Source: a virus. From it: 29,096 nt of DNA. The stretch lies in IMG/VR virus record IMGVR_UViG_3300044825_001342, positions 1 through 29,096 of that record, one strand, 5' to 3'. This document shows, one piece after another, positions 409-21,285 of this stretch. Numbering within the stretch: position 1 is the stretch's first letter; every line of letters begins with the position of its first letter. The translations under genes were made by a program, and so were the position numbers. The notes under the pieces are model-generated. The model was not told the origin of the DNA. It did not search any database and worked only from the letters and a program-made list of their open reading frames with translations.

Positions 409-999
409 ATGCACACCATGTCGACCGCCGCGAAGAACGCGGCACTCGCCGCCCGCGTCACGCTGCTCGGCGCGACCGCGATCCTCGAGCTGTGGAACGG
501 CACCAAGCCGTCGTCACTCGGCAGCCCGGCCGGCACGAAGCTGGCGACGCTGAACCTGCCCAACCCCGCCGCTACCGTCAGCGGGGGCGTGCTGACCTAC
601 GGCACCTATACGCAGACGAACAGCAGCCACTCGCCCGGCACGCCGACCTTCGTGCGCGAGAAGGACAGCAGCGGAAACGTCGTCAGCGACACCGACATCG
701 GCGCGAGCAGCTTCACGGCCGCCATCAGCGGCACGACGATGACCGTCTCGGGCTCCGTGACCGGCTCGCCGCTGGTGGTTGGCATGGAAATCAGCGGCTC
801 CGGCGTCACCGCCGGCACGACGATCACCGCGCTGGGCACCGGCACGGGCGGCAGCGGCACCTACACGGTGAGCGCATCGCAGACCGTGAGCAGCAGCACC
901 CTGACGGCCGCCGGCGGCAATGGGAACTTCAAGTTCACCGGCACCATCGCCACCGGCCAGAACGTCACCGGCACGCTGACGCTGACGCACGGCAACTGA
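409..999 (+). CDS. Small phage structural protein with inserted beta-rich module
   Basis: A 196-residue protein preceded by a good ribosome site (GCAGGAG, 6 bases before ATG). Residues 1-99, with [14 protein letters not shown] and [11 protein letters not shown], resemble a widespread family of small phage virion proteins whose exact role is not established. Residues about 101-167 form a Gly/Ser/Thr-rich module containing [17 protein letters not shown] and [13 protein letters not shown], a segment seen inside many unrelated phage structural proteins; it appears inserted before the C-terminal strand region ([21 protein letters not shown]). It lies directly after the capsid gene and before surface-protein-like genes, so a head decoration or fibre-base role is possible but is inference. 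Confidence 0.7.
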
Positions 1000-1011: not shown

Positions 1012-2328
1012 ATGGTCCCGATCGCGGCCACGTACAACGTCGGCGCGGCCACACCGATCAACGGCGGGCGCTGGCCGGGCGGGCGCCTGTCCGGCGCTAT
1101 CGCGCTGGGCAACGCCACGCCGGCCGGATCAATGTCGAGCAACACATCGGCACTCGCGGCGGCCCTGACGCTTGACGACATCGCCACAGGGGGCGCGCTC
1201 TCCGACACCGTACCATCGTGGCTGCGCAGCGCCGCTGTGCACGAGTGGGTGGCCGTCCCGAATAGCACCCTTCAAGGCAGCCCCGCATGGCAGGCCATGC
1301 CGACGCCGGGCTTTTGGGGCAACCAGCTTGGCTTCGTGAACGCCGAGAACGGCACCGGCCTGAACGAGGAAACGAGCGAGGTCTGGCTGTTCGGCGGCGG
1401 CCACTCGGACTATGCGGGCAACGAGCTCGCGTCGATCGTGCTGGCAGCGGACAGCCCGGTCTGGCAGCTCCGGTGCACGCGCAGCGAGGCGGCCGCGATG
1501 AAGCCCTACGGCAGCGGCGGAACCGACCCGGCCTGGAACACCGACGGCAAGCCGAACAGCCGACATAGCTACTCGGGAACGCACTTCATCCGCAAGCTGA
1601 ACCGCTACTTCGCCATCGACGGCTACACCTGGGACAGCGCGAACATCCGCCCGATGGGGCCGGCGACGTTCGACGTGGACGCCGGCGCCTGGGAGGCCTC
1701 CGGCACGTGGCCTGCGCCGCCAGGCAGCGACAGCTCGAGCAGCCCAGGCATCTACGCGAAGCACCCCGTCACCGAGGACATCTACTACGGCGCCGGCGGC
1801 GGCTACAAGCTCTTCAAGCTGGACACGACCACGAAGACGTGGACGACGGTCACCAGCGCGATCGGCAGCTACTTCCCCGGCACCGACGTGCAGGCCATCG
1901 ACAGCGCGCGCAACGGGCTCACTGTCCTGAGCACGCGCGCGGGCGCAGGGCTGACGAACACCGTGTTCTTCCGCGTCGACCTCACCACCGGCGTGCGTAC
2001 CGACTTGACGATGCAAGCGAGCGCGGACTGGACGGCCTTCCAAGCCATGAGCACGAACCACGGCGGCCTGCACTACGCCGCGGACCTCGACTGCTTCTTC
2101 TACTGCTTCGGCGGCACGGGCCAGGGCGGCAAGGTCTGGAAGATCACCCACGTCTCTGGCGACACCTGGGCGATCCAGCAACTGACGATGACCGGCGCCA
2201 CCGTGCCAGCCGGCACCGGCGTCGCCAACGGCAACATCCTGAGCCGGTTCCGCTACCTGCCGGCCCTGCGCGCAGTCATGGCATTCCCGGCCGCGAACTC
2301 CCCCATCTACGTCGCAAAGGTGGCCTGA
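1012..2328 (+). CDS. Kelch-like beta-propeller structural protein
   Basis: A 438-residue protein starting 12 bases after the previous stop. Residues 26-41 and 48-63 are two copies of a 16-residue repeat (second copy LAAALTLDDIATGGAL) shared with the next two genes. The rest is a Kelch-like pattern: VWLFGGGHSDY near residue 124, SRHSYSGTHFI near 184, and FYCFGGTGQGGKVWK near 363, with regularly spaced aromatic/Trp and GG pairs. Kelch/galactose-oxidase-type propellers usually bind ligands such as glycans; no catalytic residues are evident. Its position between capsid and connector genes suggests a surface-exposed virion protein. The propeller call is by pattern only and the true blade count is unknown. 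Confidence 0.7.
   Translation: MVPIAATYNVGAATPINGGRWPGGRLSGAIALGNATPAGSMSSNTSALAAALTLDDIATGGALSDTVPSWLRSAAVHEWVAVPNSTLQGSPAWQAMPTPGFWGNQLGFVNAENGTGLNEETSEVWLFGGGHSDYAGNELASIVLAADSPVWQLRCTRSEAAAMKPYGSGGTDPAWNTDGKPNSRHSYSGTHFIRKLNRYFAIDGYTWDSANIRPMGPATFDVDAGAWEASGTWPAPPGSDSSSSPGIYAKHPVTEDIYYGAGGGYKLFKLDTTTKTWTTVTSAIGSYFPGTDVQAIDSARNGLTVLSTRAGAGLTNTVFFRVDLTTGVRTDLTMQASADWTAFQAMSTNHGGLHYAADLDCFFYCFGGTGQGGKVWKITHVSGDTWAIQQLTMTGATVPAGTGVANGNILSRFRYLPALRAVMAFPAANSPIYVAKVA
1087..1200 (+). repeat. Two LDD-type 16-residue repeats (gene at 1012)
   Basis: Codons 1087-1134 encode LSGAIALGNATPAGSM and 1153-1200 encode LAAALTLDDIATGGAL. Both fit the pattern L-x-x-x-x-x-L-D/G-D/N-x-x-x-x-G-x-L/M that recurs in the two genes downstream. 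The first copy is the most diverged of the seven. Confidence 0.65.
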
Positions 2329-2329
2329 G

Positions 2330-3634
2330 ATGGCTGACTTCATCACCGCGGTTGGCACCTACGCAGAGCTGAGCGCCTGGTACAGCGGAATCCCGTCCAG
2401 CGTACCCAGCGGCGACCGCTACATCGCGGAGGTGTCTGGCACTGCCGGCATTGCGATGGGGTCGTCTACGTGGAACACGAAGACCCTCGTGTCGGCCGGC
2501 CAGATCATCATCCGAGCAGCAGCCGGGGCAAAGGCCGGCGGCTCGCCGCCAGCGGCGTACAAAGACGCCGGCGTCGCGACGCTGTATCACACCTTCGGAT
2601 CGCTTGTCACCTTTGGGTCGAACATCGCCGGCGGCTTTGTCCTCGAGGACATTCAACTCGTCAGCTTCCAGAACGGAGGGTTCACCTTCGCCGCGGGCTC
2701 GCGCGTTGACCGCTGCCTTGTGCGCAACACATCCAGCAACGCAAACACCCCGAACTTCACCAGCACCGGCCTGGCGGTCAACTCGATATTCATCCGCGAC
2801 GCCGGCGTCACCGGCGCCGCCATGCAGGCGTCAGGTACCGGGGCCCACACAAGCAACACCTTCATCACGTTCGCAGACGGCGTCGCGCTTGCGCTGAGCG
2901 GCACGTTCCAGAACGCGGCGTGGAAGAACAACTACGCGGTCAACCTGAGCGGCGGCAGCGCGGACCCGTGGCCATCGCCGCCGACGAGCTTCTTTTCTGG
3001 CGCCTCAAACAACGCGACATCGCTCGGCACGCAGGGCAACTGCCCCGGGTCGTCGGCGGTTGTCGGCGCCAGCGGCGCCGCAAACTTCGCCGCAGTCGGC
3101 ACCGGCGCAACGACCATGAACGCGACGCCGGTCGCAGGATCGGCGCTGCGCAACGCCGGCGTCGTGGCGTCAAGCAACGGCGGCGTCGACTGGTACAACG
3201 CCACGAGGCCCGGCACCCCCGGCATCGGAGCGGCAGAGTACGCCGCGCCGGCCTCGACCATCAGCGGCAACGCCACCCTTGACAACATCGCGCCGGCCGG
3301 CGAGCTGATCGTCAGCCTGAGCGGCATCGCCGGCGGCCTGACGCTCGACGACTACATGCCAGGCGGCACGCTCGACGTCGCCCCCGGGGCCATCGTCGTG
3401 CCCGAGCTGCGCAACTGGGCAGGCAGCCTGCAGGCCGGCGTCACGGTGCCAGTCGTGACCGTGTGCAGGCTGTCAGACGGCGCGCAGGTGCTGACGCTGA
3501 CAAACCAGGTAAGCGACGGCAGCGGCCACATCAACATCGCCAGCGCTTCGATCATCACCGGGACCTGGTACATGGTCGTCGGCTGGAACGCCGACGCCTC
3601 CGCGCGATTCGCGCGCCCCGTGCAGGCCACATGA
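2330..3634 (+). CDS. Beta-helix-like phage surface protein with LDD repeats
   Basis: A 434-residue protein whose ATG is one base after the previous stop (TGAGATG), implying coupled translation. Residues about 1-300 read like a right-handed parallel beta-helix: short hydrophobic strands alternating with N/G/S-rich turns (GGFVLEDIQLVSFQNGGFTF, SRVDRCLVRNTSSN, NSIFIRDAGV, NTFITFADGVAL), ending with PGTPGIGAAEYA, a pattern typical of phage and bacterial beta-helix proteins. Two 16-residue LDD repeats follow (residues 311-348), then a C-terminal beta-sandwich-like domain of about 80 residues with VVTVCRLSDGAQV and TGTWYMVVGWNADA. It lacks an obvious catalytic site, so glycan binding or cleavage is only a possibility. 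The fold is inferred from pattern. Confidence 0.7.
   Translation: MADFITAVGTYAELSAWYSGIPSSVPSGDRYIAEVSGTAGIAMGSSTWNTKTLVSAGQIIIRAAAGAKAGGSPPAAYKDAGVATLYHTFGSLVTFGSNIAGGFVLEDIQLVSFQNGGFTFAAGSRVDRCLVRNTSSNANTPNFTSTGLAVNSIFIRDAGVTGAAMQASGTGAHTSNTFITFADGVALALSGTFQNAAWKNNYAVNLSGGSADPWPSPPTSFFSGASNNATSLGTQGNCPGSSAVVGASGAANFAAVGTGATTMNATPVAGSALRNAGVVASSNGGVDWYNATRPGTPGIGAAEYAAPASTISGNATLDNIAPAGELIVSLSGIAGGLTLDDYMPGGTLDVAPGAIVVPELRNWAGSLQAGVTVPVVTVCRLSDGAQVLTLTNQVSDGSGHINIASASIITGTWYMVVGWNADASARFARPVQAT
3260..3373 (+). repeat. Two LDD-type 16-residue repeats (gene at 2330)
   Basis: Codons 3260-3307 encode ISGNATLDNIAPAGEL and 3326-3373 encode IAGGLTLDDYMPGGTL, separated by six residues. They match the repeat in the upstream and downstream genes closely enough to propose common descent. 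Confidence 0.75.
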
Positions 3635-4302
3635 GCACGAGCTACGGCGCCACGCCGCCAGGCATCACCGGCACCCACTACGGCGGCGCCGGGCTCGGCC
3701 TTGCGGGCTCGCTGATCCCGAGCGAAGGCCTGGACGGCCCGGGCTACCTCTACGCGGGCCTGTCGCTGCCAGACGACGCGGCGCGGGAGATCCGCGGGCC
3801 GATCACCAGGTGGCCGGCCGGGACGCTGACGGTCTTCGAGGACAGCAGCTTCCACTACACCGGGCCCACGGACTACGCGCTCTTCAGGGTCTACGTCGAC
3901 GGCGTCGCCCTGACCGACGACATCGGGAACGGGCCCGGCATCGGGCTGATCTTCCTCGGCGTCGGCGCCGAGCAGCCGACGCTATCGGGGACCGCGGCGC
4001 TCGACGACATTCAGCCAGGCGGAGCGCTGGAAACAATCGCCGCCTCGCAACTGGCAGGCGGCGCGGCCCTTGACGACCTGACCGCCGCGGGATCGCTGGC
4101 GTCGCTGGCGCCCGGAGAGTCCGAGCTGTCGGGCGGCGCCACGCTGGCCGACGCCACGCCAGGCGGCGGGCTGTTCTCGCTCGCCACGCAGCCGACCGCC
4201 ACACCCGGATTCACGGCCCGCCGCGCGCCGTGGGACTTCACCGCCAGGCGCGCGCGGCCGGTGTTCGCAGCGACAATCGACGGGCCGAAACGTCGAGCAT
4301 GA
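3631..4302 (+). CDS. Virion-associated protein with three LDD repeats
   Basis: A 223-residue protein; the start is the ATG in an ATGA overlap with the previous stop. Upstream in-frame codons encode Arg/His-rich shadow sequence, so that start is preferred. Residues 1-115 form an unrecognised domain with SEGLDGPGYLYAGLSLPDD and LFRVYVDGVALTDD. Residues 118-181 contain three repeats of the LDD type, and the C-terminus is basic and aromatic with a duplicated FTARRA motif. I do not recognise the family. Sharing the repeat with two neighbouring beta-rich proteins suggests that the three proteins assemble together or bind the same site, perhaps on the head. Confidence 0.7.
   Translation: MSTSYGATPPGITGTHYGGAGLGLAGSLIPSEGLDGPGYLYAGLSLPDDAAREIRGPITRWPAGTLTVFEDSSFHYTGPTDYALFRVYVDGVALTDDIGNGPGIGLIFLGVGAEQPTLSGTAALDDIQPGGALETIAASQLAGGAALDDLTAAGSLASLAPGESELSGGATLADATPGGGLFSLATQPTATPGFTARRAPWDFTARRARPVFAATIDGPKRRA
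3982..4173 (+). repeat. Three LDD-type 16-residue repeats (gene at 3631)
   Basis: Codons 3982-4029 encode LSGTAALDDIQPGGAL, 4051-4098 encode LAGGAALDDLTAAGSL and 4126-4173 encode LSGGATLADATPGGGL, with 7- and 9-residue linkers. They are the clearest tandem set and define the consensus L-S/A-G-G-A-A/T-L-D-D-I-x-P-G-G-x-L. Confidence 0.8.
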
Positions 4303-4309
4303 GGGCAGC

Positions 4310-4609
4310 ATGACCACGCGCACCAGCACCAAGGATCCGGGCGAAATCGTGACGCTGGAGTTCGACTTCGCGGCCTTCGGCACGCCGTCGTCGCCCGACA
4401 TCACGGTCGACGTGCACCGCGGCACCGACGAAAACCCAGACGCCGTGCGGCTGGGATCGGCCACGGTGTCAGGCACCAAGGTGCTGCAGCAGATGACCGC
4501 AGGCGTCTCCGGCGTTGACTACTGGGTGCGCTGCTACGCCTCGGTCGGCAGCGACCGGCCGCTGATCGACATGATCGTGCCGGTGCGCAGCCGGCCCACC
4601 GCAGCCTGA
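4310..4609 (+). CDS. Small phage beta-sandwich-like structural protein
   Basis: A 99-residue protein with ribosome site GAGGG four bases before ATG. It begins with a TKDPGEIVTLEFDF motif and ends with YWVRCYASVGSDRPLIDMIV. This layout resembles the roughly 100-residue beta proteins often found just before the gp36 (DUF1320) gene in Mu/D3112-like and related phages. The function is not established; an accessory head or connector role is inferred from position. The next gene starts after an AGGAGGG site that overlaps this stop codon. Confidence 0.7.
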   Translation: MTTRTSTKDPGEIVTLEFDFAAFGTPSSPDITVDVHRGTDENPDAVRLGSATVSGTKVLQQMTAGVSGVDYWVRCYASVGSDRPLIDMIVPVRSRPTAA

Positions 4610-6120: not shown

Positions 6121-7038
6121 ATGTCGGACTATTCCTACCTCGGCAGCGGCAAGGTCTACGCGCGCGAGATCGGTGGCTCCGCCGGCCACATCTTCCTCGG
6201 CAACTGCTCGGCGATGAACTTCGCCGTGACCGAGGACACGAAAGAGCTGAAGGACTTCACGCAGCCCGGCGGCGGCACCTACAACGAGGTGAAGCGGGTC
6301 AGCGCTGTCGAGGCGTCCGGCACGATGCACGACCTGAACGCCGCGAACCTCGCGCGCCACCTGTACGGCGCGGCCAGCGCGGTGACGTCCGGCGCGATCA
6401 CGAACGAGGCGGTCACGGTCTACCCGGACGCATTCACGCCGCTGGCCTACCTGCCCGCGACTTCGCCGGCCCCGGTGGTCTCCCTCGGCGACGGCGCCGC
6501 CGCCCGGGCGAACACGACCGCCTACGCACTCGGCGCCTACGTGGTCCCGGCATCGGCGAACGGCTTCTACTACAAGGCGACCGCGGCCGGCACCAGCGCG
6601 GGCACCGTGCCGACCTACCCGACGACCGTCGGCGGCACCGTGACCGACGGCACCGTCACGTGGACCTGCGCCGGCAAGGTCGCGCCGGTGGCCGACACCG
6701 ACTACGAGGTGCGAAGCGGCGGCATCTTCTTCTACGCGGGCAAGGTCCTCGCCGGCGAGGCCGCGCAGGTCGACTACACCAAGGTCGCCGCCGACCTCGT
6801 GCAGGCGCTGGTGGCCAGCGCGAAGGAATACGAGATCGTCTTCGACGGTCTCAACGAAGCCCGCAGCGGCAAGCGCACGCGCATCACCGCGTACCGCGTC
6901 AAGGCCGGCGCGCTGGCGAACCTCGCGCTGATCGGCGAGGAGTACGCTGCGATCGAGTGGACCGGCAAGCTGCTGAAGGACACGTCGAAGACCGGCGTCG
7001 GCATCAGCCAGTACTTCAAGGTCGACATCGAGGCCTGA
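6121..7038 (+). CDS. Major tail tube protein with inserted beta module
   Basis: A 305-residue protein with a GGAG site before the ATG. The N-terminal half (GSGKVYAREIGGSAGHIFLG, then VKRVSAVEASGTMHDLNAAN) and the C-terminal half (EYEIVFDGLN, SGKRTRITAYRV, GISQYFKVDIEA) match the pattern of siphovirus tail tube subunits that polymerise into the tail shaft. Residues about 126-186 form a module containing TTAYALGAYVV, GFYYKATAAGTSAG and GTVTDGTVTWTC, which resembles small carbohydrate-binding-like inserts in phage structural proteins and is probably displayed on the outside of the tube. It sits immediately before the two assembly chaperones, as usual. Confidence 0.85.
   Translation: MSDYSYLGSGKVYAREIGGSAGHIFLGNCSAMNFAVTEDTKELKDFTQPGGGTYNEVKRVSAVEASGTMHDLNAANLARHLYGAASAVTSGAITNEAVTVYPDAFTPLAYLPATSPAPVVSLGDGAAARANTTAYALGAYVVPASANGFYYKATAAGTSAGTVPTYPTTVGGTVTDGTVTWTCAGKVAPVADTDYEVRSGGIFFYAGKVLAGEAAQVDYTKVAADLVQALVASAKEYEIVFDGLNEARSGKRTRITAYRVKAGALANLALIGEEYAAIEWTGKLLKDTSKTGVGISQYFKVDIEA
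6496..6678 (+). other. Inserted module inside the tail tube gene
   Basis: These codons encode residues 126-186 of the tail tube protein. The Thr/Tyr/Gly-rich unit ends in PTTVGGTVTDGTVTWTCAGK and interrupts what is otherwise a contiguous tube-protein pattern. The same unit type recurs in unrelated phage structural genes, which suggests a mobile, surface-exposed domain. Confidence 0.6.
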
Positions 7039-15905: not shown

Positions 15906-16120
15906 CGGTCGTCAGGGTCGAGCACTGCGTCGGCGACGACGGCATGCGCTACTGCGCGTGGGGCATCCGCGCCTTCTGCCGGCGGCACGGCATCGACCTG
16001 GCCGCCTTCCTGCGCGACGGCATCGACGCGGACGAGCTCGAGCGCACCGGCGACGCGCTCGCCATCGCGGCCGCCAGGCGCGCGCGCGAGGCGACAATCC
16101 GGGCCGGGGGTGACGCATGA
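15902..16120 (+). CDS. Small conserved phage tail-region protein
   Basis: A 72-residue protein with a GTG start overlapping the previous stop (GTGA) and an ATGA overlap with the next gene. It reads VRVEHCVGDDGMRYCAWGIR followed by AFCRRHGIDLAAFLRDGIDA. Similar short proteins occur at this spot, between the small hydrophobic gene and the tip/fibre gene, in related phages. The function is unknown. Cysteines at 9, 18 and 26 are present but no classical zinc motif is evident. Confidence 0.75.
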   Translation: MTVVRVEHCVGDDGMRYCAWGIRAFCRRHGIDLAAFLRDGIDADELERTGDALAIAAARRAREATIRAGGDA

Positions 16121-19100
16121 GCAGCGGCGGCAAGCAGACGACGGGATACCGCTACTTTCTCGGCCTGCACATGGGCATCTGCGCGGGCCCTGTCGACGCG
16201 CTGCTGGAGATCCGCGCGGGCGACCGAACGGCGTGGTCCGGCACGGTCACCGTCAGCGGCGGCATCGACATCAACGCGCCGGAGCTCTTCGGCGGCGAGA
16301 CGCGCGAGGGCGGGCTTGTGGGCCGCCTCGACGTGATGATGGGCGAGCCAACGCAGGCACCGAACGCCTACCTCGCGCAGACGCAGGGCATGCCGCAGCC
16401 GGCCTACCGCGGCATCATGGGCGTCGTCTACCGCAAGGGCCAGGTGTCGGCGAACAACCCGTACATCAAGCCGTGGTCCCTGAAGATCCGCCGCATCCTG
16501 CAGGGCTGGCGCGGCGCGGCGCCGTGGTACTCGGCGAAGGCCGAGATCGCGCTGGCCAGCGGCGACAAGGCCATGAACCCGGCGCATATCGTCTACGAGT
16601 GCCTGACGAACGAGGACTGGGGCATGGGCTACTCGTCGACCATCGTCGACGACGGCAGCTTCAGGGCGGCCGCCGACGCCTTCCACGCCGAGGGTCTGGG
16701 CCTGTGCATGCAGTGGCTACGCCAGCAGTCGATCGAGACCTTCATTCAGTCCGTCGCGGACCACGCCGGCGCCGTCGTCGGCCAGGACCGCAGGACCGGG
16801 CTCTTCGTCATGCGCCTGATCCGCGGCGGCTACACGGTGGCGAGCCTGCCGCTGTTCAGCCCGTCGAACGTCGTCGCGATCGACGACTTCCAGCGCCCCA
16901 GCGTGGTGGAGAGCGTGAACGAGGTCGTCGTGCGCTTCGACGAGCTGTCGACCGGCAAGGAAGGGTCGGTCACCGTGCAGAACCTGGCGAACATCCAGGC
17001 GCAGGGCGGCGTCGTGAGCCAGTCGAAGGCCTACCCCGGCCTGCCGACCGCCGAGCTGGCGATCCGCACGGCGCTGCGCGACCTGAAGACCGTCTCGACG
17101 CCGCTGGCCAAAGTGCGGATGCGCGCGAACCGCGACGCCTACGCGCTGCTGCCCGGCGACATGATCCGCCTGACGTGGCCCGACCTGAAGCTGGTCGACC
17201 TGCCGCTGCGCGTGCTGCAGGTGTCCGCCGGCGACCTGACGCGCGGCGAGATCACGATCGAGGCCGCGGAGGACGCCTTCGACCTGCCGGCGAACGCCTA
17301 CGCGACGCAACCCGAGGTCGGCTGGCAGGACCCCGTGAGCGACCCCGCGGCGGCCACCACCGGCACGCTGACCGAGGCACCCTACTGGCTGCTGACGCGC
17401 GCACTCGGCGCCGCGGAGGCCGCCGCAGTCGACCCGCTGTCGGGCTACGTCATGGCCTACGCCGCGCGACCGTCGGCGGACGCCATCGCCTACAAGCTGA
17501 AGGTCTTCGACGGCACCAGCTACCAGGCCGCGGACACCGGCGACTGGTGCCCGTCCGGCACGCTGGCGACCAGCATCGGGCCGACGGCCACGAGCGCCAC
17601 GCTGCAGCTATCGGCCGACCTGAGCCTGGTCGCGGCCGGCACCTACGCGGCAATCGGCACCGAGTGGGTGCGCATCGACGCCGTGAACGCGGCGGCCGGG
17701 ACGCTCACCATCGGCCGCGGCGTCATGGACTCGGTGCCGCAGACGCACGCCGCCGGCGCCCGCGTCTTCTTCGTCGACGGCTTCGAAGCGCGCGACACGA
17801 CGGAGCGCCTCGACGGCGCCACGGTGCAGGCGAAGCTGATCACGCAGACGCCCGCCGGCAACCTCGCCGAGGGCTCCGCGCCGACGCTGTCCGTCGTGCT
17901 CGACCAGCGCGCGGCCAGGCCGTACCCGCCCGGGCGACTGCGGATCAACGGCAACGCCTACCCGGCGTCCGTGGTGGCCGACAAGCTCACCGTGAGCTGG
18001 GCGCACCGCGACCGGCTGCTGCAGAACCTGCAGGGCGACGAGAGCGGCGACATCGGGCCAGAGGCCGGCACGACCTACTCGCTGCGCGTGCTCGACGGCG
18101 CGGCCGTGGTTGCCTCGGCGACCGGCCTGACCGGCACGAGCTGGGAATCGCCGATCCTGCCGACGGCCGCCTACACGGTCGAGGTCTGGAGCGTCCGCGG
18201 CGGGCTCGAGTCGCGCCAGCGCGCCACGCACGTCGTCAACCTGGCCGGCACCGACCTGGTCGGCTGGAACCGCAAGTGGGGCGCACGCTGGAGCGGCTCG
18301 TGGGGCGGGCCAGCGCCTGCGGCACTCATCGACGTGCCCATCACCATCGGCGGCACGCCGGCATCCGGCACGGTCTACACCATCACGATCGACGGCGCCC
18401 CCTTCACTTACACCGCGGCCGGCGGCAACACGACCTCGGACGTGGCGGCCGGCCTGGCGGCAGAGCTCGCGGCGGGCGGCATCGCCGTCGCGGTCTCCGG
18501 GCCCGTGGTCACGGTCACCGTGCCCGCCGGAACGGTCGTCACGTCGACGACAGCGCCGGCAGGGGAGAGCGCCACCACCGGCACCACGCAGACGGCCACG
18601 CCAGCCGGCACGGCCACGCGCGACACCTACCGCGTGCGCCTCGACATGGTGACGCCAGGCACGTGGTCGACGCCAGTGGGCACGGTCTACGGCGTGCGCT
18701 TCGGCGCCTCGGACGGCGCGCTCTCCAGCTACACGGCCACGGCCGACCGCGCCGACGCCGACGCCCACTACTTCCTGCTGCAGGGCATGGTCGCCGCCTT
18801 CGCGGCCAGCGGAGACGACGCCGACAACTGGACCGGCACCCTCGACTGGCCGAACCGCGTCGCCATCTTCCAGGGCCCGCCCGGCGTGGACATGCGGATG
18901 CATGGCGTGCAGGGCTCGACCGCCGTCGTGGTCAACTGGGACCGCACGCCGGCGACCACCGGCGCGGCGCGCGCGCAGATCTCGACCGTCACCATCGGCG
19001 GCACCGGTGCGGCCGGGCTGACCTACACGGCCGTCGTCGGCGGCGTGACGTTCACCCACAACGCCACGGGCGGCGGCGGCGTCAACGCGGCGGCAACCGC

Positions 19101-21285
19101 GCTGGCGGCGCTGATCGACGCGCACGCCACCTATGCGGCGACGGCTGTCGGCCCCGTGGTGACGATCACCGGCCAGGCCGGCGTGCCATTCTCGGTGGCG
19201 GTGACGGTGACGAAGACCGGCGAGACGGCCACGCCAGCCGTGCCGACCACGGACGCCCCGGCCAGGGCGCAGACGATCGAGCCGAGCGCCACGCGAGCCA
19301 CGGCGAACGTCGACGCGCGCGCCGGCGGCGTGCTCGTGAAAAGGCTGAACAGCCCGGCCGGGACCTTCACCACGCCGTCGAAGCTGATCTGGCGCGACGG
19401 CACGACGACGCGGGCGCTGGACTTCTCGACCGGGAACGCCTTCGCGGCCACCGACGCCGTGATCGACGACACCGGCATGACGCTGGGCGCGGACGGGAAC
19501 GGACCCTACGGCGCCGCCGCGGCGTTCCTGGCCGGCCTGGGCGTGTTCCGCGCGATCCGCTGGCAGGGCGACGGGGCGCCGGCGCGCGTGATCGCGCACG
19601 AGCTGCCGGGCGGCCCGGCGATGGCGATCGTCGCCAGCGACGAGGCCGGCGCCGACCGGCTGCTGCGCCTGATCTGGATCGACGGCGGCAGCAACCGCTG
19701 GGGCGTCCCAATGCCGTCCAGCGGAGGCGCGGCCGCTGTCGACGACGGCGCAGCGCCCTACATCAATCTGTGGAACACCACGGACCTGAGCCTGGCGCCG
19801 CGGCTGAACCGGGCCGGCGCGTCCTATGCGGCCTTCGTGTTCGGCACCAGCAGCAGCTCGGCCGGCAACGTCGCGTCAGGCACCTACACCGGCAACGGCA
19901 GCACGTCCGGGCCGGCGCAGACGCTGGGCTTCCGGCCCGCGCTGCTGATCGTGCGCGCGGGGTCCGGCGTCACGGCGAAGACCTTCGTCACCGGGCACAT
20001 GCTCGACGGCAAGGCGGACACGCACTGGTTCCTCGACGAGACCGGCGGCGGGCCGACCGGGACGACGGCCCTCGTGGAGCTGACCGCGACCGGCTTCCGA
20101 CCCACCGCCAACAGCGTGCACGTGAACGCCAGCGGGCAGGGCTACATCTACTGGGCGCTGCGCAGCGACCCGAAGGTCGGCGGCCCGTGGGCCTCCGACG
20201 GCTGGGCCGCCAGGCCCGTGATCGAGTTCGGCGGCAAGGTCCTCGCCACCGACACCGGCACGCGCGGCGGCATCAAGAGCGCGATCTCGCGCCTCTACGA
20301 GTCCGCCGACGACGGAGCGACGTGGACGCTGGCCTACGAGGGAGTGCGCCCGGCGGCCGGGGCCTCGTTCCCGCACCTCGACTTTGTCGTCGGCGGCGCC
20401 CGCGTGGCCTACATCATCGACGGCGAGAGCGACATGACCTCGTCAGGGCTCGAGTACCAGGCCCTGAGGGCGACGGAGAACTCCGGCTTCATCAGCTTCA
20501 CCGGCTACCCGAAGAACGGCAGCCAGACCGTGCACGTGCGCGCCGCGCACTGCGACGGGACGACCATCACGGCCATCGGCGTCGAGCCGTTCAATGGCGG
20601 CCAGCCGGCGGCGAACCTCTACGTCTACACGTCCACGGACGGCATCGCCTTCACCCAGGTCGGCCAGGCGCAGCAGTCTGGAAGCGACCCCAACGTCCTG
20701 AGCGGCTCCGGCACCGGCACCTTCGTGTCGAGCACCTTCCGCTACGGCTGTTCGCTGCGCAAGATCTCCGGCCGCTGGTTCCTGACCAGCGACAAGGCGA
20801 TCTACTACACCGACACGGCGAACGCCACGACCGGGTGGCTGCGCTGCCCGACCGGCCTGAACGAGGGCGCCACGAACCCGCCGCCGGCCATCGTCGGCTT
20901 TCAGCAGGTCGGCTCCAAGCTCGTCGCGTGGAAGGCGAACATCGGCGTCGGCGCGGACAGCCTGAACGCCGCCTACAGCAGCGACAACGGCGCGACGTGG
21001 ACCGCGCTCCGGCCAGCGCCCCTGACATCCGCGATCGAGCGCCTCGGCCTCGGCTGGGTCTTCGGCGGCACCCTGCACGTCGTCGAGCAGCAGAGCGGCG
21101 ACATCCTGCGGTGCACCGACCCGGCCGGCACGTGGACGCGCACCACGCCGACAGGCGTCAAGCACATCAAGCGGGTGCTCGTCACCGCGTCGAGCGTGCT
21201 GGTTTCAGACCAGCCGGACGGCGCCGCCATGACAATCCGCCGGTCCACCGACGGCGTGACATTCGCCACCACCACCGGGATCTGA
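16117..21285 (+). CDS. gpJ-like tail tip/central fibre protein, multi-domain, 1722 aa
   Basis: Starts in an ATGA overlap. Residues 1-400 form the hub-type core of phage tail-tip proteins (YRYFLGLHMGICAGPVDALL, NPAHIVYECLTNEDWGMGYS, ALLPGDMIRLTWPDLKLVDL). About 603-710 is fibronectin-like (LTVSWAHRD, TTYSLRVLDG, AYTVEVWSVRGG). Around 738-835 and 958-1055 lie two diverged copies of one Thr/Ala-rich module, with a possible third between them. Residues 1242-1352 resemble a fibre tip module (YTGNGSTSGPAQTLGFRPAL). From 1385 to the end, four Asp-box motifs (SADDGATW, TSTDGIAF, SSDNGATW, RSTDGVTF) suggest a sialidase-type propeller. In lambda gpJ the C-terminus binds the receptor; here the C-terminal modules are the likely host-recognition part. 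Catalytic sialidase residues cannot be confirmed. Confidence 0.88.
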   Translation: MSSGGKQTTGYRYFLGLHMGICAGPVDALLEIRAGDRTAWSGTVTVSGGIDINAPELFGGETREGGLVGRLDVMMGEPTQAPNAYLAQTQGMPQPAYRGIMGVVYRKGQVSANNPYIKPWSLKIRRILQGWRGAAPWYSAKAEIALASGDKAMNPAHIVYECLTNEDWGMGYSSTIVDDGSFRAAADAFHAEGLGLCMQWLRQQSIETFIQSVADHAGAVVGQDRRTGLFVMRLIRGGYTVASLPLFSPSNVVAIDDFQRPSVVESVNEVVVRFDELSTGKEGSVTVQNLANIQAQGGVVSQSKAYPGLPTAELAIRTALRDLKTVSTPLAKVRMRANRDAYALLPGDMIRLTWPDLKLVDLPLRVLQVSAGDLTRGEITIEAAEDAFDLPANAYATQPEVGWQDPVSDPAAATTGTLTEAPYWLLTRALGAAEAAAVDPLSGYVMAYAARPSADAIAYKLKVFDGTSYQAADTGDWCPSGTLATSIGPTATSATLQLSADLSLVAAGTYAAIGTEWVRIDAVNAAAGTLTIGRGVMDSVPQTHAAGARVFFVDGFEARDTTERLDGATVQAKLITQTPAGNLAEGSAPTLSVVLDQRAARPYPPGRLRINGNAYPASVVADKLTVSWAHRDRLLQNLQGDESGDIGPEAGTTYSLRVLDGAAVVASATGLTGTSWESPILPTAAYTVEVWSVRGGLESRQRATHVVNLAGTDLVGWNRKWGARWSGSWGGPAPAALIDVPITIGGTPASGTVYTITIDGAPFTYTAAGGNTTSDVAAGLAAELAAGGIAVAVSGPVVTVTVPAGTVVTSTTAPAGESATTGTTQTATPAGTATRDTYRVRLDMVTPGTWSTPVGTVYGVRFGASDGALSSYTATADRADADAHYFLLQGMVAAFAASGDDADNWTGTLDWPNRVAIFQGPPGVDMRMHGVQGSTAVVVNWDRTPATTGAARAQISTVTIGGTGAAGLTYTAVVGGVTFTHNATGGGGVNAAATALAALIDAHATYAATAVGPVVTITGQAGVPFSVAVTVTKTGETATPAVPTTDAPARAQTIEPSATRATANVDARAGGVLVKRLNSPAGTFTTPSKLIWRDGTTTRALDFSTGNAFAATDAVIDDTGMTLGADGNGPYGAAAAFLAGLGVFRAIRWQGDGAPARVIAHELPGGPAMAIVASDEAGADRLLRLIWIDGGSNRWGVPMPSSGGAAAVDDGAAPYINLWNTTDLSLAPRLNRAGASYAAFVFGTSSSSAGNVASGTYTGNGSTSGPAQTLGFRPALLIVRAGSGVTAKTFVTGHMLDGKADTHWFLDETGGGPTGTTALVELTATGFRPTANSVHVNASGQGYIYWALRSDPKVGGPWASDGWAARPVIEFGGKVLATDTGTRGGIKSAISRLYESADDGATWTLAYEGVRPAAGASFPHLDFVVGGARVAYIIDGESDMTSSGLEYQALRATENSGFISFTGYPKNGSQTVHVRAAHCDGTTITAIGVEPFNGGQPAANLYVYTSTDGIAFTQVGQAQQSGSDPNVLSGSGTGTFVSSTFRYGCSLRKISGRWFLTSDKAIYYTDTANATTGWLRCPTGLNEGATNPPPAIVGFQQVGSKLVAWKANIGVGADSLNAAYSSDNGATWTALRPAPLTSAIERLGLGWVFGGTLHVVEQQSGDILRCTDPAGTWTRTTPTGVKHIKRVLVTASSVLVSDQPDGAAMTIRRSTDGVTFATTTGI
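18328..19280 (+). repeat. Repeated domain inside the gpJ-like gene
   Basis: Codons from 18328 (ITIGGTPASGTVYTITIDGA, then PFTYTAAGG and PVVTVTVPAG) and from 18988 (VTIGGTGAAGLTYTAVVGGV, then TFTHNATGG and PVVTITGQAG) encode two diverged copies of a unit of about 90 residues. The segment between them (GTVYGVRFGASDG to RVAIFQGPPG) may be a third, weaker copy. Confidence 0.65.

Follow-up and report, generated by a model that had tools for sequence, protein, structure and literature searches.

Phages are already known to build modular receptor-binding proteins, garlands and adhesin-fibril modules. The garland proteins of the Agrobacterium phage Milano are reported to be dimers with the fold of T4 gp8 and A511 gp105, the BW3TFN connectors that make beads on a string, while the string of the Milano garland was called unclear by the authors (PMC10811340). 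In phage 7-7-1, which like Milano is a Schmittlotzvirus, gp014 is the garland protein in the tail-fibre model 9RKV, a homodimer contacting both short and long tail fibres (PMC12796354). Adhesin, fibril protein and the immunoglobulin (Ig)-like adaptor gp77 are grouped in the fibres of the Ralstonia podophage GP4, and the "extra structural module" gp34-36 of LSH1 consists of genes that are always found together and are present in only half of the related phages (PMC13243795). Here we analyze a 29.1-kb IMG/VR virus fragment (IMGVR_UViG_3300044825_001342, positions 1 to 29,096; hereafter the window, meaning the whole stretch) in which three adjacent genes carry the same short peptide repeat, and we propose, with about even confidence, that this repeat acts as a connector motif common to three proteins of a four-gene receptor-binding (adhesin) cassette, itself transferable, and that its units dock on garland dimers. 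The four genes, here called gene A and genes 1, 2 and 3, are laid out in the window as follows, all repeat copies being placed by the repeat profile.

409..999, + strand: gene A, garland-family protein and putative bead, with a tail-fibre-type domain of ~70 amino acids inserted (phrog_3758 match)
1012..2328, + strand: gene 1, conserved 25-amino-acid anchor, two repeats and kelch-like head (head homologous to that of gene 1 in the relative L027, below)
1012..1086, + strand: gene 1 anchor peptide (...Y-x-V-x-A-x-x-P-I-x-x-G-R-W-x-G-G-R-L), conserved in 5/5 cassettes
1087..1140, + strand: repeat copy 1 (LSGAIALGNATPAGSMSS), gene 1
1153..1206, + strand: repeat copy 2 (LAAALTLDDIATGGALSD), gene 1
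2330..3634, + strand: gene 2, beta-helix-like head, two repeats and conserved C-terminal Ig-like domain (from comparison with relatives)
3260..3313, + strand: repeat copy 3 (ISGNATLDNIAPAGELIV), gene 2
3326..3379, + strand: repeat copy 4 (IAGGLTLDDYMPGGTLDV), gene 2
3383..3631, + strand: conserved C-terminal domain of gene 2 (beta-sandwich), kept in all five cassettes and also in EBPR siphovirus 1 and the Barba phages
3631..4302, + strand: gene 3, three repeats between a conserved N-terminal domain and a variable basic tail (from comparison with relatives); its start at 3631 forms an ATGA overlap with gene 2
3982..4035, + strand: repeat copy 5 (LSGTAALDDIQPGGALET), gene 3
4051..4104, + strand: repeat copy 6 (LAGGAALDDLTAAGSLAS), gene 3
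4126..4179, + strand: repeat copy 7 (LSGGATLADATPGGGLFS), gene 3

The reality of the repeat was examined with a position-specific profile built from 13 copies of two relatives only, none of them from the window. Among all six-frame positions of the window this profile ranked first exactly the seven copies named in a preliminary description of this DNA (two, two and three in genes 1, 2 and 3), at 13.6-27.4 bits with the next best position at 9.0, and shuffled versions of the three proteins yielded 0.002-0.006 hits per protein at a threshold of at least 12 bits, against the real 2, 2 and 3. That the remainder of the three proteins is dissimilar was likewise borne out, as BLASTP alignments between them were confined to the repeats (E about 1e-5) and no similarity remained once these were masked. 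The repeats follow a period of 22-25 residues in the window, with units of ~22 residues and cores of 18. The consensus of 28 units from five cassettes, in which one L027 unit (gene 3) is aligned two columns off register, reads L-S-G-x-V-T-L-D-x-V-A-P-A-G-x-L with two almost invariant glycines; the LDD element of the consensus given earlier did not generalize, being a window trait found in 4/7 window copies and in 0/21 units of four relatives. A search of the repeat against solved structures returned no meaningful match. At the codon level, CCA encodes three of the five repeat prolines (window 1159-4166) and is otherwise rare in this 70% GC (guanine plus cytosine) genome, with 31/269 Pro codons of the window genes.

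Direct searches of IMG/VR and INPHARED with genes 1 and 2 gave no match, while gene 3 retrieved two IMG/VR phages, G001 (L002) and G002 (L003), and a scan with gene A, in which the repeat was not used, added two more complete IMG/VR cassettes, L027 (47% GC) and L028 (60% GC). Gene A is followed by genes 1, 2 and 3 in all five cassettes. Gene 2 carries two repeats in every one of them; gene 1 carries two in the window, G001, G002 and L027 and one in L028; and gene 3 carries three in the window and G001, two in G002, one in L027 and none in L028. Over the whole contigs of the window, G001 and G002, matches of the repeat profile were confined to cassette genes, which, together with the near absence of hits in shuffled proteins, is unlike random matching of Gly/Ala-rich sequence. 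Neither gene 3 nor the repeat had a match in 84,980 prokaryote genomes, and an origin from a common prophage or from random Gly/Ala-rich proteins was therefore rejected.

For most pairs of phages the cassette is the sole similarity found. G001 and G002 have nothing alike beyond it, whereas the window has further genes in common with each of them: with G001 the tape measure and a gp36-like gene, with G002 two small genes. The chassis of L028 is P22-like, with portal, coat and Hc3. By our reading of the sequences, the G001 cassette appears to have a DUF3486-like gene on one side and the large terminase on the other. An IMG/VR scan with gene 3 of L027 and L028 produced no further cassette. Two other contigs break off within a homologue of gene A (L030 8514-8624 and L031 9001-9111), so that additional cassettes beyond the five, truncated at these contig ends, probably exist.

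The repeats mark the joint between conserved and exchangeable parts of the proteins. By their conserved parts the phages fall into two clades, {window, G001, G002} and {L027, L028}, while the gene 1 heads sort independently of these, switching at the repeats: G001 and L028 both have a BNR head (36% identity, E 2.6e-74), the window and L027 both have a kelch-like one (30%, E 7e-34), and the sialate-O-acetylesterase head of G002 (SASA, E 3e-10) stands alone. Gene 1 is 59% identical between L027 and L028, and 58% identical between G001 and G002, as far as the repeats and unrelated beyond them, which therefore places the head-exchange boundaries at the repeats. In gene 2 the heads are of the beta-helix type in the window, G002 and L027 and of the Laminin_G_3 type in L028, and across G001 and G002 the repeats and C-terminal domain are kept while the N-terminal heads differ; gene 3 of G001 and G002 keeps its N-terminal domain and repeats. 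The exchanged DNA, comprising the end of gene 1 and the start of gene 2, thus has repeats on both flanks. Heads of the relatives scored above the gathering score (BNR_4, E 1.8e-20 in G001 gene 1 and E 2e-26; SASA, E 3e-10; Laminin_G_3, E 2e-9), whereas the window's own heads received weak family assignments; the Kelch-like character ascribed earlier to its gene 1 product is faintly echoed by PF13964 (E 0.06) in the window and by Kelch_3 (E 0.004) in L027. Overall, the cassette proteins fit the scheme of modular phage receptor-binding proteins, with a conserved assembly part and exchangeable carbohydrate-binding or carbohydrate-processing heads, the latter judged from the relatives. L027 also encodes a second gene 1 paralogue (17095-18243), with anchor, one repeat and kelch-like head, ~4.6 kb downstream of its cassette, as if the genome kept a spare head.

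When repeats are compared across genes, those from one phage are more alike than those from different phages (identity 0.414 against 0.333). Besides the LDD of the window, an example is the motif AVAAG, which occurs in all three L028 copies and in no other phage's. The within-phage excess was reached by 2/2880 relabelings at the protein level and by 25/2880 at the DNA level, in a test of five phages only, with labels that are not fully exchangeable and the off-register L027 unit included. This co-variation fits a common partner, or operon-internal copying under selection on the peptide, and the weaker similarity of the DNA relative to the protein suggests that selection acts on the peptide. 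Spread within the operon, which the preliminary description had offered as an alternative to a docking tag, gains support at both levels but by itself leaves the fixed positions of the repeats unexplained. A reading of the repeats as chiefly junctions for head exchange, in DNA or protein, spread by operon-internal copying and with no assembly role, would agree with the coincidence of exchange boundaries and repeats, with the DNA-level likeness and with the excess of CCA codons; we nevertheless judge it very improbable, since the stronger protein signal suggests selection at the peptide level, gene 2 retains two units in all cassettes, and the gene 3 repeats adjoin no recognisable exchangeable head.

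Another reading is a passive stalk, in which the repeats would make up a short shaft, either beta-spiral-like or flexible, that keeps the head apart from the anchoring domain, as in the shaft repeats of adenovirus-type fibres, with no dedicated partner. The repeats of genes 1 and 2 do sit between two domains, their Gly/Pro-rich units with alternating hydrophobic residues would suit a spiral, and the copy number is not fixed, gene 1 having one or two and gene 3 anything from none to three. A spacer needs no cross-protein likeness within a phage, yet such likeness is seen; moreover, a shaft of two or three units would be a short one, and the gene 3 repeats have only a short variable tail after them. 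We therefore regard a stalk as unlikely, with perhaps one chance in a few. The triple beta-spiral fibre shaft is a trimeric spiral with repeats of ~15 residues; the period here is 22-25.

The proposed partner of the repeats is suggested by the first gene of the cassette. Gene A of the window matches phrog_3758 over the whole domain (E 4e-12 and 1.3e-14), the family that also holds 7-7-1 gp012 and gp014 (E <1e-35) and gp137 of the Rheinheimera Barba myoviruses (E 6e-16), and a profile from three gene A proteins in turn matches 7-7-1 gp012 (E 2.7e-9) and gp014 (E 4e-7). From these profile matches, gene A is assigned to the garland family, for which dimer placement around tail fibres is known in the case of 7-7-1 gp014. 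The garland family profile also matches a second solved structural protein, PDB 44nx_B (E 2.7e-6). Within the garland domain of the window protein, residues ~99-170 form an insert of a kind characteristic of tail fibres (phrog_21413, E 4e-17; phrog_38233, E 6e-15); the gene A proteins of the relatives are without this ~70-amino-acid insert.

Garland genes beside short repeats recur in other phages, which were reached through garland or domain homology, the repeats not being used. In 7-7-1, a propeller-like region of gp009 precedes a 21-amino-acid array, gp010 consists of a repeat array, and Milano gp2 and gp3 match this pair. In Rhizobium phage RHph_N46, WD40-type proteins are encoded after two garland genes, and two of these WD40-type proteins have a ~21-amino-acid array in common; QXV73971 is an array-bearing garland neighbour. 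In the Barba phages, gp134 is propeller-like, gp135 and gp136 carry the gene 2 and gene 3 domains together with ~24-amino-acid repeats of a common type (about ten copies in gp136), and gp137 is the garland protein. The strongest short-period protein, with a period of 21-24, is a cassette gene or garland neighbour in 7-7-1 (75 open reading frames), L027 (18), L028 (19) and the Barba stretch (13), and gene 3 ranks second in the window. Such sharing by adjacent proteins, seen in Barba gp135/gp136 and in RHph_N46, would also suit self-association, in which the repeats of genes 1-3 pair strand to strand and co-assemble one fibre while gene A has another role; the presence of the repeat in all three proteins and its co-variation within a phage agree with this. 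We consider it improbable, however, as it leaves unexplained the arrays beside garland genes in phages with different repeat sequences, and L028 gene 3 retains its domain without any repeat.

Some smaller observations concern these comparison phages. The adjacent WD40-type genes of RHph_N46 (L020 16195-18306 and L023 48-1403) have their ~21-amino-acid array in common at 49% identity over 408 amino acids, and show weak similarity to both Milano gp2 and 7-7-1 gp010. In the near-identical isolates Barba26A (L034 5321-7270) and Barba21A (L033 6113-7270), gp135 differs by a 264-amino-acid insertion directly before the repeat, which is natural head variation in cultured phages. In EBPR siphovirus 1 (L032 4914-7231), gp40 and gp41 have a stretch of sequence in common (41 amino acids at 98%) near a run of unresolved residues, and this is probably an assembly break in the gene 2 homologue.

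A common docking or assembly element is the best-supported reading of the repeats, in view of their orthologous positions in five cassettes, their place at the joint between conserved and exchangeable parts, the garland neighbour and the within-phage likeness; the docking tag of the preliminary description is to this extent upheld, contact between repeat and partner being a prediction. In the mechanism that we propose, gene A would supply a small garland-family bead, whose solved relative forms dimers around the 7-7-1 tail fibres, and genes 1-3 would each supply a conserved virion- or assembly-side part joined to other parts through the repeats, the joined part in genes 1 and 2 being an exchangeable head (kelch, BNR, sialate-O-acetylesterase, beta-helix or ConA-like). 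Each unit may act as a short extended strand that docks on the garland dimer, or on the same type of partner, such that one bead-and-string connector would collect several interchangeable heads on the virion, and the defined joint would permit head swaps by recombination without breaking assembly. The three neighbouring genes would then carry the same repeat because, together with the bead protein, they form a portable attachment module; docking on garland dimers would also explain the portability of the cassette.

Several results weigh against this proposal. The gene 3 repeat is missing in L028 and degenerate in L027, the relabeling test has the narrow basis given above, and the cassette of the window phage is known here from genes alone. 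Structure prediction gave docking no support: the AlphaFold model of gene 3 was discarded at a predicted local distance difference test score (pLDDT) of 30, and the repeat half of gene 2 reached 56, with the repeats mostly <50. The garland gene stands first in the five cassettes and last in Barba. A profile of the window-type repeat found no match in 7-7-1, and a likeness by eye between the Barba and window repeats was not supported, its scores falling below shuffled controls and the profile-profile comparison giving E 0.2. The arrays of 7-7-1 and Barba thus show no demonstrable homology to the window repeat, and what is shared is therefore design, not sequence, as judged from period, position and gene neighbourhood.

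Compared with the described systems, the cassette resembles Milano and 7-7-1 in the garland family of gene A and in garland neighbours with propeller-like domains and ~21-amino-acid repeat arrays; the garland-region genes of 7-7-1 lie between small and large terminase, and the G001 cassette lies just upstream of the large terminase. It differs in that genes 1-3 have no sequence match in 7-7-1, the repeats are unrelated by profile and the virion types are other. With T4 gp8 and A511 gp105 it would share dimeric beads and an extended chain tying receptor-binding proteins to the virion (PMC10811340), although here the bead would be a garland-family protein and the string a repeat spread over three proteins. 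The grouping of adhesin, fibril protein and Ig-like adaptor in GP4 may be paralleled by a gp77-like gene after the cassette in the window and G001 (PF23148, below gathering score), while genes 2 and 3 match no solved structure by sequence and a common repeat is not described for GP4 or LSH1 (PMC13243795). Barba gp134-gp137 (Barbavirus, PMC6715854) have homologues of the gene 2 C-terminal and gene 3 N-terminal domains, a garland gene and ~24-amino-acid repeats, and EBPR siphovirus 1 gp40-gp42 include homologues of the same two domains; these counterparts are mostly annotated as hypothetical, and no connector role was found in the passages of PMC6715854 consulted.

A literature search found no description of a repeat common to three cassette proteins at a head-exchange joint, in a four-gene unit of several unrelated phages. 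The repeat is a candidate answer to the stated open question of what strings a receptor-binding garland together, including the string of Milano (PMC10811340), and the cassette provides a portable adhesin unit, with a defined head-exchange joint, in phages with little else in common. More tentatively, and at somewhat less than even confidence, phages may have a general adhesin connector with garland-type proteins as its beads and the neighbouring 21-25-residue repeats as its string, forming a lineage-specific bead-string code that co-evolves within the operon, with the four-gene connector moving among podo-, sipho- and myovirus-type virions and taking different heads at the repeats. The cultured Barba relatives allow a direct test of this idea, and if the rule holds, many virion genes now called "hypothetical" could be annotated from the pairing of a garland gene with a repeat.

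Sequence comparison of gene 1, the C-terminal half of gene 2 and gene 3 with solved structures gave no meaningful match. The AlphaFold model of the gene 2 C-terminal domain is weak and beta-rich, its nearest folds being Ig/Fn3-like, generic and not significant; a VrlC match of the same domain (E 0.8) was inspected and dropped as noise. One further gene adjoins the cassette:

4310..4609, + strand: Ig-like gene resembling the podophage GP4 fiber-tail adaptor gp77 (PF23148, below gathering score)

Its match to PF23148 (E 4.6e-4, 21.1 bits) and that of its G001 counterpart (E 1.7e-5, 25.7 bits) both fall under the gathering cut-off of 27, and no gp77-like Ig gene directly follows gene 3 in G002 and L028, so that this neighbour is not constant. 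Elsewhere in the window, the major tail protein at 6121-7038 (phrog_807) matches the head-decoration family phrog_20658 over residues ~124-183 (E 8e-9), and a 1722-amino-acid tail protein at 16117-21285 carries Phage-tail_3 and a DUF7483 domain (E 1.5e-12).

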